A stretch of 64,000 nt of DNA from positions 30,742,316 through 30,806,315 of the forward strand of contig OX422183.1 of the NCBI GenBank assembly GCA_949130485.1, in the 5' to 3' direction. Both the position numbers and the translations under genes were made by a program. Shown one piece after another: positions 1 to 43,452 of the stretch (position 1 is its first letter; every line of letters begins with the position of its first letter). The DNA is from Agelas oroides. Its lineage: Eukaryota > Porifera > Demospongiae > Agelasida > Agelasidae. The notes under the pieces are model-generated. The model was not told the DNA's origin and did no database searches. It saw only the letters and a list, made by a program, of their open reading frames with translations.

Positions 1-1195
1 TGCACAAAACTTGCATGATGTACCACAACAACATTTATACTGACGAAATGTGATGTAAATTGGATATGCTACCTACTCGGAGTATAAACACAATATACTC
101 CTCATATATGTGAAATATTTAATACACAAATTAATACACTACTGAATGAAAATCTTTTCAGTCTGGAGTATAAATTTGATTGTTGAAAGCAAATTTGGCA
201 GCATTAAGTGTTGGTATACAGCCAGCCAGTATTAGTAAAGCAGAATAAGGTCTTGTTTACCCTTCTTCTTCCTCAGATCCGCTCATCATGCTGTGAAACA
301 CGATGGGATCCACAAGCAGAGATTTCTTCAGCAGAGGATCCGTGCAATGTTCATTTTGACTTCAGTGCATGTCATAGTGTTGCTAGTTGCAACTGGATTT
401 GTCCTCACTAGGCGATTCAGGGTCATCAAGCTTCACCGAAACTGTTAATTAGACTAGTATTTTTATATATGGACTGTACTGCTATAGTAGCTCCAATTAG
501 TGACACAATCTTTGAGCAACAACAGTACAATTGATAAAGTTTTAGCCTTATTTCCCAGTCCTCCCTCATTTTTACCTTCCATTTGCATTCACAATAATAC
601 ACGGGAGTGGAATGCAAACAGAAGGTGAAAATGGAGGAGGCCAGGGAACAAGGCTAATACAGTTGTACATGCATAATTATTATGGCATGATTGTATATAT
701 TGTGAATGAACAAAGCAAGATGAAAATGATTATAAAATTTCATTGAATACTTATATATTTTCATGCAACATCGGATTCCGTCATACGTACATCTGACAAT
801 AAGGCATTACAACTATTACATCACTAACAGACCTTGCCACTATGTCCATCTTTTGATACTAAGACTGATAGGGTATGATGAGAATGTACCCATCCTATAT
901 ACGAGAAAACCCTACTTTTGGGGCTTTACAGTTTCCACCTGTCAGAATGAAGTAAAATAGGGAAGTGGGATCATGCATGTGGGCTTATAATAGTGTGCAT
1001 GTAGATGTATGCTTGAATAGGATTAGCTTTAGTTTGCAGAGATTGGTACTTCACAAGTCAAACAGGGCTGATGATGATGATTGGTGATAATGGCTCTTTT
1101 CAGCTAGACACAATTCAAGAAACTCTATATAAACATGCACAAACAATTAATGAACCTCATCGTCCTCAAAAAAGGTAGGTCCAATTTATACCAAG
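1..1195 (+). repeat. Segmental duplication, copy A
   Basis: This stretch matches 8071-9265 with a constant offset of 8070 and roughly ten substitutions in the first 1.2 kb, so about 99% identity including intron and intergenic DNA. It contains the end of the SCRP1 intron, SCRP1 exon 2 and its 3' flank. Beyond 1195 the two copies keep aligning with indels up to about 2345 and 10165 and include the promoter and first exon of the next gene. The duplicated block therefore spans the junction between two neighbouring genes, as expected from unequal crossing-over in a tandem array. Confidence 0.9.
277..411 (+). CDS. SCRP1 exon 2 (partial): six-Cys secreted peptide
   Basis: This is the second and last exon of a small secreted Cys-rich peptide; exon 1 lies before the window. 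The exon follows a polypyrimidine tract and CAG acceptor at 271-276 and ends with TAG at 409-411. It opens in phase 0, the phase in which exon 1 of the other copies ends. The 44 residues start IRSSCC and end NWICPH, with spacing CC-x16-C-x8-C-x5-C-x3-C. It differs from SCRP3 exon 2 by one synonymous base. I do not recognise the family. Six cysteines and a signal peptide suggest an extracellular disulfide-rich peptide; its role is unknown. Confidence 0.75.
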   Translation: MRSSCCETRWDPQAEISSAEDPCNVHFDFSACHSVASCNWICPH

Positions 1196-1869
1196 TCACC
1201 CACTACACAGAATGCATGCAGACTCTCCAGGTATTGTATAGGCTTCACTGACTGCATCGGGCACCAGCCTTTGCCACATACTGCTGTGGTTTTGAGATGT
1301 ATAGCTAGACAACCTGTAGTTTCCATTTCCAAAGTACCACAACATGAAACCATTAGATATTTTGACACTAGTGTACTTTTTCATTTCTGTGATTCACACA
1401 CACACACACACATGCACAATCACGGCAGTTGTATAAGATCACAACAGTACTATGTCTCAGCCTCTACCTGTAAATTGATGAGACGTTTTACTACACACTT
1501 TTAGACCTACCAACCACAGAAGTTTAGCTTGCGTCTTGCAGTTTCTATGTATGCATTAGAATGTGGATGGCTTAATGCATGCAGTATATGATATGTAGGG
1601 AGAGAAGAAAGAGAAGAAAGGAGTATAGCACAAAACAGGATTGAAAGATCATCTGCCGGCATGGGGTAGCTAGACTTAGATAAGATCAACACTGGAACTC
1701 TGCTCATATCAGGTTGTGACCAGATTGAGAAAGGGAACATCAACTAGCTAGCTAATTACAGCACCACTCACACTCACCAATTTTGAAAACAAATGACTTG
1801 ACTTCCTGTCCCCATCTTTGGCAACACAGTATACATCTCAGACCAAATTGTGTGGTAGTTATCCATTCG

Positions 1870-2030
1870 TGATCATGCACTGTGGGGAGGGGGGAAACAA
1901 AACCCTTATAGTTATCAGGCACTCCTTTGATCTGACAGAAAGCAGAAGCACTTGATTATGCAATTTTGACTTATAATGAAGTACTCAGGAGGAGGTCATG
2001 TCATGCACGGTTTGACTTGGAGCTATAAAA
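1870..2030 (+). promoter_or_regulatory. SCRP2 promoter with TATA box
   Basis: TATAAAA at 2024-2030 lies 115 bp before the SCRP2 ATG. The 150 bp upstream is conserved in all four visible copies of this promoter: a G-run followed by AAACAAAACCCTTATAG (about 1895), a CACTCCTTTGATCTG block, AGCAGAAGCACTTGATTA, and CAGGAGGAGGTCATGTCATG just before TATA. Conservation of non-coding blocks between copies with different exon 2 types suggests shared regulation. Confidence 0.65.
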
Positions 2031-2138
2031 ATAAACACTCGCAAGCAAGAAGAGCAAGAAGAGCAAGCACTTTAACCAGTGATAAGGAGAATCCAGAACA
2101 TAACATCGAGCAGCAAGAAAACCATCAACTTATCCAAA

Positions 2139-2730
2139 ATGCAGGGACTGCTGAAACTTCTCTTGGTCTGTGGCATCCTTCTGGCTGTGGTGGCTGACAC
2201 TCAAGCTTTAGCTGTAAGTCATGCATAAACTAAAAGGCACGGTGTTACTATTGGGACACTGGAAAGATGGTTCTCTGTCACCGATGTGAATCATTCTCAG
2301 AAAAACCTCTCCAATTATCCAGGTGCCAGCTAAGAAGCCACTGAATTTTACATTTTATTTGGATACTTTTGCTTAAAAGAAAGAAACAGATTATAATAAA
2401 ACTTTTTTGGCAAGCATGTACATAATAATGAAGACATATTAGCAAACAGAAACACGCAAACACTGCTAAATGCATAAACTCTGTAGTATCTGAACCAGAT
2501 TGAACTGGCAGTGACATATAGCTAACACTTGATCAGAAAGCTATTATCAAAGAAGCAGAGTATAATTGCTTATTCTTTATCTCCTTTCTCTACAGCCTAG
2601 TTCATCATGCTGTACTGCAATACACGACCCACGAAAACCAGTGGAACTTGGAGACAGTCTGTGCAAATTTGCCTCAGATATTAGCACATGTCACCATGCC
2701 TCTGGATGCCAGTGGATTTGTCCACACTAG
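2139..2730 (+). CDS. SCRP2: two-exon secreted six-Cys peptide
   Basis: Exon 1 is 2139-2213 (25 codons) with a donor GTAAGT; exon 2 is 2596-2730 after CTACAG; the 382-bp intron is phase 0. The 69-residue product begins MQGLLKLLLVCGILLAVVAD, a typical signal peptide, followed by TQALA. Cleavage could fall before DTQ or after ALA. The mature part carries CC-x16-C-x8-C-x5-C-x3-C-PH and ends QWICPH. Compared with SCRP1/3, exon 1 is nearly identical while the loops between cysteines are mostly different; only the cysteines, a DP pair, CH and WICPH persist. The next gene, SCRP3, is a different exon-2 type. Function unknown; a host-defence or venom-like peptide is only a guess from the architecture. 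Confidence 0.82.
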
Positions 2731-41700: not shown

Positions 41701-41804
41701 CTCACACACACACACACACACACACACACACACACACACACACACACACACACACACACACACACACACACACACACACACACACACACACACACACACA
41801 CACA
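41701..41804. repeat. CA microsatellite, about 50 units
   Basis: An uninterrupted (CA)n of about 100 bp ends in CATACACG. It corresponds in position to the short CA tract near 1395 in the SCRP2 upstream region, so it has expanded in this unit. Confidence 0.97.
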
Positions 41805-41814
41805 TACACGTATC

Positions 41815-42660
41815 TATGGCAGTTGTATAGTCAAAACTATGTCTGAGCCTCTATCTGTAAATTGATGAGAAATTTTACTACATACTTTTAGACCTACCAA
41901 CCACAGAGGTTTAGCTTGCAGTTTCTATGTATGTCTTAGAGTGTGGATGGCTAATGCAGTCTATGACATGCAGAGAGAGGAGAGAGAGAAGAAAGGAGTA
42001 GCACATGACAGGATGGAAAGGTCATCTGCATGGGGTCATATAGACTTAGATAAGACCAACACTGGAACTCTGCTCGTGCAATGGTACATCAGCTAGCTAA
42101 TTAAAGCACAAATCTACTCACTAATTTTGAAAATAGTGACTCAACTTCCTGTCCCCGTCTTTGGCAACAAAAGTTATACCTCAGACAAATTGTGTTATCC
42201 ATTTGTGATCATGCAATGTGGGGAGGGGGAAACAAAACCCTTATAGTTATCAGGCACTCCTTTGATCTGATGGAAAGCAGAAGCACTTGATTAGGCAATC
42301 TTGGAAATACTCCGGAGGAGGTCATGTCATGCACCGCTTGATTGGGAACAGGTATAAAAATAAACACAGGTGAGCATCTCGCAAGCAAGAAGAGCAAACA
42401 CTTAACCAGTGAAAAAAGGAGAATCCAGAACATACAATCAAGCAGCAAGAAAACCATCAACTCGTCAAAATGCAGGGACTGCTGAAACTTCTCTTCGTCT
42501 GTGGCATCCTTCTGGCTGTGACAGCTGACACTCAAGCTTTAGCTGTAAGTCATGGCATAAAATAAGAGGTCTCTGTAACCGGAACACCTCTCCATCTATC
42601 CAGGTGCCAGCTAAGAAGCCACTGAATTTTTAATTTTAGTAGGATACATTTGCTTTACTT
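41815..42660 (+). repeat. SCRP upstream/intron block, third copy
   Basis: Aligns with 1420-2345 (CTGTAAATTGATGAGA, GACCTACCAACCACAGAGG, TTGACTTCCTGTCCCC-like segments, promoter blocks, exon 1 and the start of the intron). This unit lies about 27 kb from the main array. Confidence 0.85.
42219..42363 (+). promoter_or_regulatory. SCRP5 promoter with TATA box
   Basis: TATAAAAATA starts at 42353, 117 bp before the ATG. AAACAAAACCCTTATAG, CACTCCTTTGATCTGATGG and GGAGGAGGTCATGTCATGC are conserved. Confidence 0.65.
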
Positions 42661-43452
42661 GCTTAATAAGAAATATAAAATATTTTAGCAAGCATGTACA
42701 TGTTGGCATTGCATGTTACTCGTGCTGCGCACTCGTAACAATACAGACGGCAACAAACTCGTGACATTTTCCGGTCAGTATAGCTTTGTACTATGGTGAT
42801 ATATTAGCACATGTACAATATGATAGTAAAGACACATGCATCAGCTTATCCTACAGAAACATATGAACACTAGCCTCGTTCCCAGGCCCCGCCCAGCTTT
42901 TAGTTCGGTAAAACGGGAGATCGAGAGGGCCTGGTACCTTTTTTCACGTGAGTGACGTCAGGATAGAAAGGAAGGGTTTAATTGTGCGTGGGCGCAATGG
43001 GCCTAGAGAACAGCAAAAAGAGCCAAGGTACCAGGTAACTTACCATACGTATCTAGCTAGCGGGGGGCGACTGTCATACACACCAAGCGTTGAGCGTGTA
43101 GTCGGTTGAAGATACGTGAAACGCAGCCCGTTAATTTCGCCGCCATTTTTCGATTACGTCATGCTCACGTGAGAAAAGTTACTGATTAAAACTCTTAAGT
43201 ATCTGAACCCGATATCACTGGCAGTATAACATAGCAAGCACTTGATCAGAAGCTATTATCAAAGAAGCATATCATATAAGTGAATATTCTTTTCTCCTTT
43301 CTCTACAGCCTCGCTCATCATGCTCATGTACTGCAATACAGGACCCAAGAAAACCAGTGCAAGTTGGTCCAGGAGACGATCTGTGCAAATTTGCCTCAGA
43401 TATTAGCACATGTCACCTTAGCTCTGGCTGCCAGTGGATTTGTCCACACTAG
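42470..43452 (+). CDS. SCRP5: two-exon secreted Cys-rich peptide, CSC variant
   Basis: Exon 1 is 42470-42544 (MQGLLKLLFVCGILLAVTAD then TQALA), donor GTAAGT. Exon 2 is 43309-43452 after TCTCTACAG, stop TAG at 43450. The intron is 764 bp, phase 0, and holds a CpG-rich insert around 42710-43190. The product is 72 residues. The mature part begins PRSSCSCTAIQDP: the usual adjacent CC is split by an inserted Ser codon, and the next loop is 18 residues (VQVGPGDDL) instead of 16. The x8, x5 and x3 spacings and QWICPH end are kept. Both exons are open with good splice sites, so it should be functional. It is isolated from the main array. Confidence 0.8.

Follow-up and report, generated by a model that had tools for sequence, protein, structure and literature searches.

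How does a cluster of genes come to join a nearly constant leader to mature peptides that differ from copy to copy? The question is raised by the window analysed here, a whole stretch of 64,000 bases (G000:C1:30742316-30806315, in a genome of 259,295,671 bases and 141 contigs), where five two-exon genes, G1-G5, lie head to tail on the + strand and each encode a small peptide with six cysteines. A first-pass annotation of this DNA had read them as an unrecognised and rapidly diversifying family of the venom or defence type. The origin that we favour is another one: the cluster probably encodes secreted disulfide-rich peptides derived from a longer gene, composed of a leader, BR3P-type repeats and a C-terminal tail, by loss of the repeats and subsequent duplication.

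Organization of the gene cluster

The gene cluster is real. The proposed layout of a 25-codon leader exon, a phase-0 GT..AG intron and one exon for the mature peptide was borne out in all five genes, and the number of copies was likewise confirmed, with five mature exons and four leader exons inside the window and the leader of G1 just upstream. The latter was located by a leader search of the genome at G000:C1:30742038-30742112 (+), 204-278 bases upstream of window base 1, while the G1 exon coding for the mature peptide and stop codon occupies positions 277..411. G2 has a TATA box (TATAAAA) at 2024..2030, at -115 from the ATG, a leader exon at 2139..2213 and, after an intron of 382 bases, a second exon at 2596..2730 for a 44-residue mature peptide and the stop. 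The leader and mature exons were found at 7767..7841 and 8347..8481 in G3 (intron of 505 bases), at 9931..10005 and 14937..15062 in G4 (intron of 4931 bases, 41-residue peptide ending in WICH), and at 42470..42544 and 43309..43452 in G5 (intron of 764 bases, 47-residue peptide with CSC instead of CC). G1 and G3 are referred to as type A, and G2, G4 and G5 as type B.

Searching the whole genome with the leader returned at least six matches (six candidates), five of them in the cluster, with expectation values (E) of 5e-8 to 2e-5, so that the cluster copies are not a product of chance. The exon 1 sequences of the six genes, that is G1-G5 and the distant match G6, are 88-100% identical in DNA over the 15 pairs. 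The encoded leader shows a hydrophobic core with a Kyte-Doolittle 11-residue mean of up to 3.3, as expected for a signal peptide, and appears to be signal-peptide-like; it would presumably be cleaved off. Neither AATAAA nor ATTAAA was detected within 450 bases 3' of the stop codon in the five cluster genes.

It is very unlikely that some of these copies are pseudogenes or assembly duplicates. Such an origin would agree with the near identity of G1 and G3 in exon 2 and 3' untranslated region (UTR), with the 4.9-kb intron of G4, which carries a reverse-transcriptase-like open reading frame (ORF) on the other strand (11124-12572; PF00078 at 26.8 bits, under the cut-off of 29.6), with the missing last proline of the same gene, and with a broken, inverted piece of a type A gene, consisting only of intron and the first bases of exon 2, at 4636..4971 on the - strand. 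However, open frames, splice sites and TATA boxes are present in all six genes, and the promoters of G1 and G3 are only 86% alike, which is not what a plain assembly echo would give.

The mature peptides

The mature peptides of G1-G5 measure 44, 44, 44, 41 and 47 residues respectively and contain six cysteines each, from which three disulfides would be formed in the secretory pathway; G1 and G3 encode an identical peptide. The cysteine pattern first described for the family, CC-x16-C-x8-C-x5-C-x3-C, is exact in G1, G2 and G3, but G4 has x14, and G5 has CxC and x18. Similarly, the WICPH motif occurs in four of the five genes, with G4 ending in WICH. The statement that the two types share little beyond the cysteines and a few motifs did not hold, as the mature part of G2 is 40% identical to that of G1/G3 and the G1-G2 alignment scored 111 against a maximum of 77 among 1000 shuffles with the cysteines fixed. 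The net charge of the exon-2 products without leader (K+R minus D+E) amounts to -4 for G1/G3, -1 for G2, -3 for G4 and 0 for G5, and speaks against a cationic antimicrobial peptide of the classical kind; membership of that class was set aside for this lack of net positive charge.

A paralogue with CX10CXCXC repeats

The sixth leader match, G6, lies 13.5 Mb from the cluster (C1:17268851-17268925, - strand; E 2.2e-5) and shares with the cluster genes its leader, its promoter blocks and the phase of its intron. Its second exon (L006/L013) encodes 101 residues, in which three C-x10-C-x-C-type repeats are followed directly by a six-cysteine tail ending in WICPH, with a cysteine spacing of 10,1,1,5,10,1,1,5,10,1,2,0,15,8,4,3. 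The CX10CXCXC repeat is therefore present in G6, with the spacing 10,1,1 twice and 10,1,2 once, and is lacking from the five cluster genes, whose spacing is 0,16,8,5,3 and variants of it. One of the repeats passes the Pfam CXCXC model (PF03128; 16 bits against a cut-off of 15, E 0.016). The tail reads CC-x15-C-x8-C-x4-C-x3-C, and where the cluster peptides have their CC, the third repeat of G6 ends. When the tail was compared with G2, G5 and G1, none of 1000 cysteine-fixed shuffles reached the observed score, against 19 of 1000 for G4.

G6 thus resembles the BR3P/CXCXC proteins, such as Balbiani-ring 3 protein and the C-terminal silk-homology domain of VEGF-C/D, in carrying three repeats of this type, placed immediately before the tail. 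The cluster genes differ from them, as they have only the tail, no complete repeat and no Pfam match. The VEGF-homology cystine-knot domain is encoded by neither exon; Pfam found nothing in the precursors and, in G6, CXCXC alone. In a published survey, five poriferan BLAST matches were classed as BR3P or BR3P-like (PMC10328876). The exon-2 product of G6 has an odd number of cysteines, 17, and its leader carries a cysteine (AACTQAVA) where the others have an aspartate; cleavage after AVAA could conceivably put this leader cysteine in the mature protein, making 18.

The search with G6 exon 2 also reached G7 (L019, on contig C7), in which an exon resembling the leader is joined in phase 0 (junction read by eye) to a C-rich exon that contains repeats and ends in C-x14-C-x8-C-x4-C-x-W. 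G6 and G7 are collinear over nearly the whole of their exons (BLASTP E 1e-9 in a single comparison), and no cysteine-fixed shuffle out of 1000 reached the score of either the whole exon or the repeat part alone. The intron of G7 (L019 1831-2435) is a tandem array of a 51-base unit in 11.9 copies with 98% matches.

The opposite direction, with the short gene ancestral and G6 a fusion that gained its repeats, seems improbable to us. The short form is the commoner one, five genes against one with the same leader among the at least six matches of the genome leader search, and the G7 tail alone shows no significant similarity; against a fusion, a similar two-exon layout, with repeats and an end of similar spacing, is found in G7, on another contig, and is collinear with G6. 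Because of its tail and its lack of a CXCXC match, G7 serves to tell loss from gain by its repeat part and gene layout.

Promoter and leader conservation and growth of the cluster

Two promoter blocks, AAGCAGAAGCACTT and GGTCATGTCATGCAC, are common to all six family genes, and TATAAAA occurs in each of them at -103 to -156 from the ATG. The promoters of the cluster genes are 75-90% identical to one another and 61-67% identical to that of G6. The conservation of promoters and UTRs noted at first pass applies to the promoter and 5' UTR (75-90% in the cluster) but not to the 3' UTRs, which are 40-48% identical between types A and B. The A-B introns (G4 left out) are 44-49% identical. As unrelated 200-base pairs from the window gave 34-50% identity (n=60), the A-B introns and 3' UTRs are no more alike than unrelated pieces. 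Exon 2 is 56-66% identical between A and B and 48-67% between either type and G6, i.e., the distances are about equal (G1 exon 2 went into this comparison of exons, promoters and UTRs lacking one codon). Since the promoters are closer within the cluster than to G6 while exon 2 is about equidistant, exon 2 seems to be older than the 5' modules.

The description of the leader as almost invariant agrees with the identity of exon 1. Between types A and B, the synonymous sites of exon 1 differ less than those of exon 2, with p values of 0.0014-0.0088 from four of the six A-B pairs, calculated on rounded counts and on pairs that are not independent. Within exon 1, G2 and G4 differ by 4 replacement changes and 1 synonymous change, and G2 and G5 by 3.2 and 0.8 respectively, resulting in a nonsynonymous rate (dN) slightly above the synonymous rate (dS) in both pairs. 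Replacement changes being no rarer than synonymous ones, the conservation of the leader is not plainly exerted at the protein level, and at least part of its constancy arises at the level of the DNA. This is most easily understood if homogenisation, through gene conversion in the simplest case, has acted on the 5' module of the cluster genes, comprising promoter, 5' UTR, leader and donor site.

The cluster itself appears to have grown by duplication. The segment from -1000 to 1398, which takes in G1 and the sequence 3' of it, matches 7039-9469 on the G3 side at 94%, and the segment 1675-2364, with the promoter, leader and intron start of G2, matches 9475-10165 of G4 at 85%, so that A and B were probably duplicated together as one pair, G5 being an additional gene of type B. 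G1 and G3 are identical at 134/135 positions of exon 2 and 200/200 of the 3' UTR, with promoters at 86%, whereas G2 and G4 are 85% identical in exon 2 and 72% in the 3' UTR. Owing to the near identity of G1 and G3 by duplication, the independent copies are fewer than five, and the unequal ages of the 3' parts (3' UTR 100% against 72%) call for G1-G3 conversion or separate events.

Diversification of the mature exon

The mature part had been described as hypervariable, and exon 2 was analyzed by Nei-Gojobori counts. The B pairs show 9-16.5 replacement and 2.5-3 synonymous differences, resulting in dN/dS values of 0.82 for G2-G5, 1.27 for G2-G4 and 1.94 for G4-G5; no significant excess of amino-acid change was detected in these three pairs (Fisher p 1.0, 0.73 and 0.76), although with so few changes positive selection may still have acted. 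In the A-B and G6 pairs, dN ranges from 0.46 to 0.70 and dS from 0.66 to 1.30, with dN lower than dS in every pair, a difference that was not significant in the three pairs tested (p 0.17-0.50). When identity was measured along the DNA in bins of 150 bases, G2/G5 reached 92% in the exon-2 bin, compared with 68% in the preceding and 72% in the following bin; for G2/G4 the value was 85%, against 42% before and 81%, 84% and 85% after. The exon-2 bin is thus no less conserved than the sequence close to it on either side, and exon 2 does not evolve faster than its surroundings. The label of hypervariability is therefore not supported, nor is that of a rapidly diversifying venom or defence family. 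In the comparison of exon 2 with exon 1, suggested at first pass, exon 2 of the B pairs shows no significant excess, and in the A-B pairs tested exon 1 has the more conserved synonymous sites.

A family of the venom or defence type, with positive selection on the mature exon and a leader fixed as in conotoxins, is accordingly an explanation to which we assign a small probability. It would account for the disparity between leaders (88-100%) and the mature parts of G2 and type A (40%), for the dN/dS values of the B pairs and for the codon-sized indels between copies. Nevertheless, no B pair departs from dN=dS, dN stays below dS in all A-B and G6 pairs, exon 2 is not less conserved than its near flanks, the A-B introns are unconserved, and only six copies were returned by the genome leader search (at least six). 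The order CC-C-C-C-C of the cysteines also occurs in conotoxins, whose precursors are alike in having a near-fixed signal exon and a separate mature exon. The cluster differs from them in its diverged A-B introns, its two exons only, its copy number of at least six and the absence of a significant replacement excess. One report gives more than 84% identity for conotoxin introns of one species across different cysteine scaffolds (PMC3862624), against 44-49% for the A-B introns. Conotoxin-like membership was weighed and set aside.

Database searches and related peptides

Pfam gave no match up to E 10 for the four distinct cluster precursors, and NCBIfam, a prokaryote library, none for the two of these four that were scanned. 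No PDB sequence matched either the G2 tail or the profile built from the tails, and the best E obtained with G6 was 0.063 (chain 6hiv_Be, named mL97). Protein searches yielded nothing at E <= 1 with a five-sequence tail alignment and no match with the G6 exon-2 ORF. The G2 precursor, compared with about 5.8 billion proteins, retrieved four matches, all of them leader ORFs from ENA contigs: P0001 and P0002 run past the donor site with residues of type A introns and P0004 with those of the G6 intron, while P0003 stops two residues after the leader. Other genomic contigs, possibly of the same species, thus contain versions of these genes. No match was found for the G2 precursor in GTDB and IMG/VR contigs, none in an Rfam scan of the window, and no report of a six-cysteine family of this kind was found in the open-access literature. 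As further tails or copies, we discarded L018 (C1:8843327-8843464, E 0.014), where the cysteine positions are not kept and the leader search is blank, and L007 (E 1.86 in the genome search with the G2 tail), which was inspected and not adopted.

These data support a secreted-type six-cysteine family with a near-fixed leader. It is unrecognised in the sense that it lacks a Pfam or PDB sequence match, but G6 ties its tail to the BR3P/CXCXC proteins. Among other known peptides, coral SCRiPs are described as small, secreted, cysteine-rich and anionic products of 41-48 residues that follow the pattern Cx6-7Cx4-6CPx3-6Cx4-6Cx5-6CCC, nearly all of them with a convertase site (PMC2652719). The cluster peptides are alike in size, predicted secretion and charge, most of them being anionic; SCRiP membership was set aside as their cysteine spacing does not fit the published pattern. 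The sponge peptides known as stryphnines, asteropsins, recifin, neopetrosiamides, barrettides and aculeines are likewise small and disulfide-rich, and the one comparison that bears on them is the PDB sequence search, which was blank. A further source gives six cysteines for recifin and the neopetrosiamides and 44 residues for the aculeines, and reports activity of stryphnines against barnacle settlement (PMC13418204). In stryphnine precursors, an intermediate stretch separates the signal from the mature part, a feature that is not obvious in the cluster genes.

CXCXC arrays and other loci

A structural role, in which BR3P-type matrix proteins would use the tail for capping or cross-linking and the cluster would supply it as a separate small subunit, was considered unlikely. 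CXCXC arrays are abundant in the genome (150 of 251 candidates were scored), mostly at C2:1.889-2.012 Mb, and 6 of 11 CXCXC ORF ends, G7 apart, read C-x8-C-x4/5-C-x7-C, a spacing partly shared with the peptides. However, one of the 11 ends has x9, and L015, L016, L017 and L044 have no such tail; C-x-W-x-C occurs in none of the 11, and among the loci read C-x8-C-x4,5-C-x-W is confined to the cluster genes, G6 and G7. A match to the latter pattern on the opposite strand of L022 was taken as chance.

The array cluster on C2 (G000:C2:1889000-2012000; same 150 of 251 candidates) contains open frames of up to 1071 codons, and its ends differ, L021 and L029 closing with C-x8-C-x4-C-x7-C and L015, L016 and L017 in a repeat. 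Another gene cluster, L064-L068 (G000:C6:7867500-7934000), has ORFs with an N-terminal cysteine domain, whose spacing (C..CxGxC..C..CxC) we take to be reminiscent of the VEGF/PDGF cystine knot, followed by CXCXC repeats. In the four ORFs scanned, Pfam detected CXCXC but no PDGF, with one sub-threshold SelP_N match; the PDB search was blank for L064 and at chance level for the domain profile, and the AlphaFold model of the N-terminal domain has a predicted local distance difference test score (pLDDT) of 34.1. The survey cited above reports no true PDGF/VEGF for Porifera (PMC10328876), which would bear on this domain if the genome is that of a sponge.

Inside the window, a 69-base unit is repeated in tandem at 6329-6883, in 8.1 copies with 97% matches. 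Two adjoining, seemingly related arrays, one with a 45-base and the other with a 57-base unit, cover 18084-18517, where both strands carry overlapping open frames. An endonuclease-reverse transcriptase domain (PF14529, 37 bits, above the cut-off) lies at 62718-63194 on the - strand.

Origin of the peptides

Derivation from a repeat-bearing gene has to be weighed against several results that do not favour it. The Pfam CXCXC match of G6 is just above the cut-off. The G2 tail found G6 exon 2 in the genome only weakly (E 0.074), and the G6 exon 2 query (40 matches) returned from the cluster only G5 (E 0.089) and G2 (E 0.22), both ranking below several CXCXC arrays; with tail E values as weak as these, the paralogy of G6 and the cluster is carried by leader and promoter. 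The G7 tail alone was equalled by 179, 187 and 440 of 1000 shuffles against G2, G5 and G1 (not significant) and by 66 of 1000 cysteine-fixed shuffles against the G6 tail, the G7 exon has no Pfam CXCXC match, and the AlphaFold model of the six-cysteine tail is poor (pLDDT 57.8), below what assignment to the knottins (ICK), with threaded disulfides I-IV, II-V and III-VI, would require. Moreover, a single A+B duplication fits poorly, if no conversion came after it, with an exon 2 at 134/135 in G1/G3 and 85% in G2/G4, selective constraint on the DNA may be an alternative cause of the conservation of the 5' module, and the ENA leader ORFs, since they read past the splice donor, are genomic sequences and not transcripts.

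Loss of repeats followed by duplication is still the account that we consider probable. The ancestral gene would have encoded a leader, CX10CXCXC (BR3P) repeats and a six-cysteine C-terminal tail; the repeats would then have been lost, the direction being loss and not gain as judged from G7, leaving leader and tail. The shortened gene would have been duplicated, probably with the A+B pair as a unit, and the 5' module homogenised among the cluster copies, while the mature exons would have kept older differences. The peptides may be secreted from cells using the common TATA-type promoter and might work extracellularly as stable soluble factors. Being neutral to anionic, they would more likely serve as a defensive or deterrent secretion than as cationic membrane-lytic antimicrobials, and we weakly favour such a secretion over a matrix role.

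A candidate origin can therefore be traced within one genome, from a BR3P-repeat protein to a free-standing six-cysteine tail peptide. More tentatively, and with confidence falling somewhat short of an even balance, the cluster might represent a new peptide class derived from a VEGF-C-tail-like protein stripped of its BR3P repeats, in which the homogenised promoter-leader would make the mature exon a swappable cassette. The picture of a constant leader and a variable mature part can come from concerted evolution of the 5' module together with domain loss, and no demonstrable positive selection is needed for it, which calls for caution when venom-like peptides are annotated from genomes.

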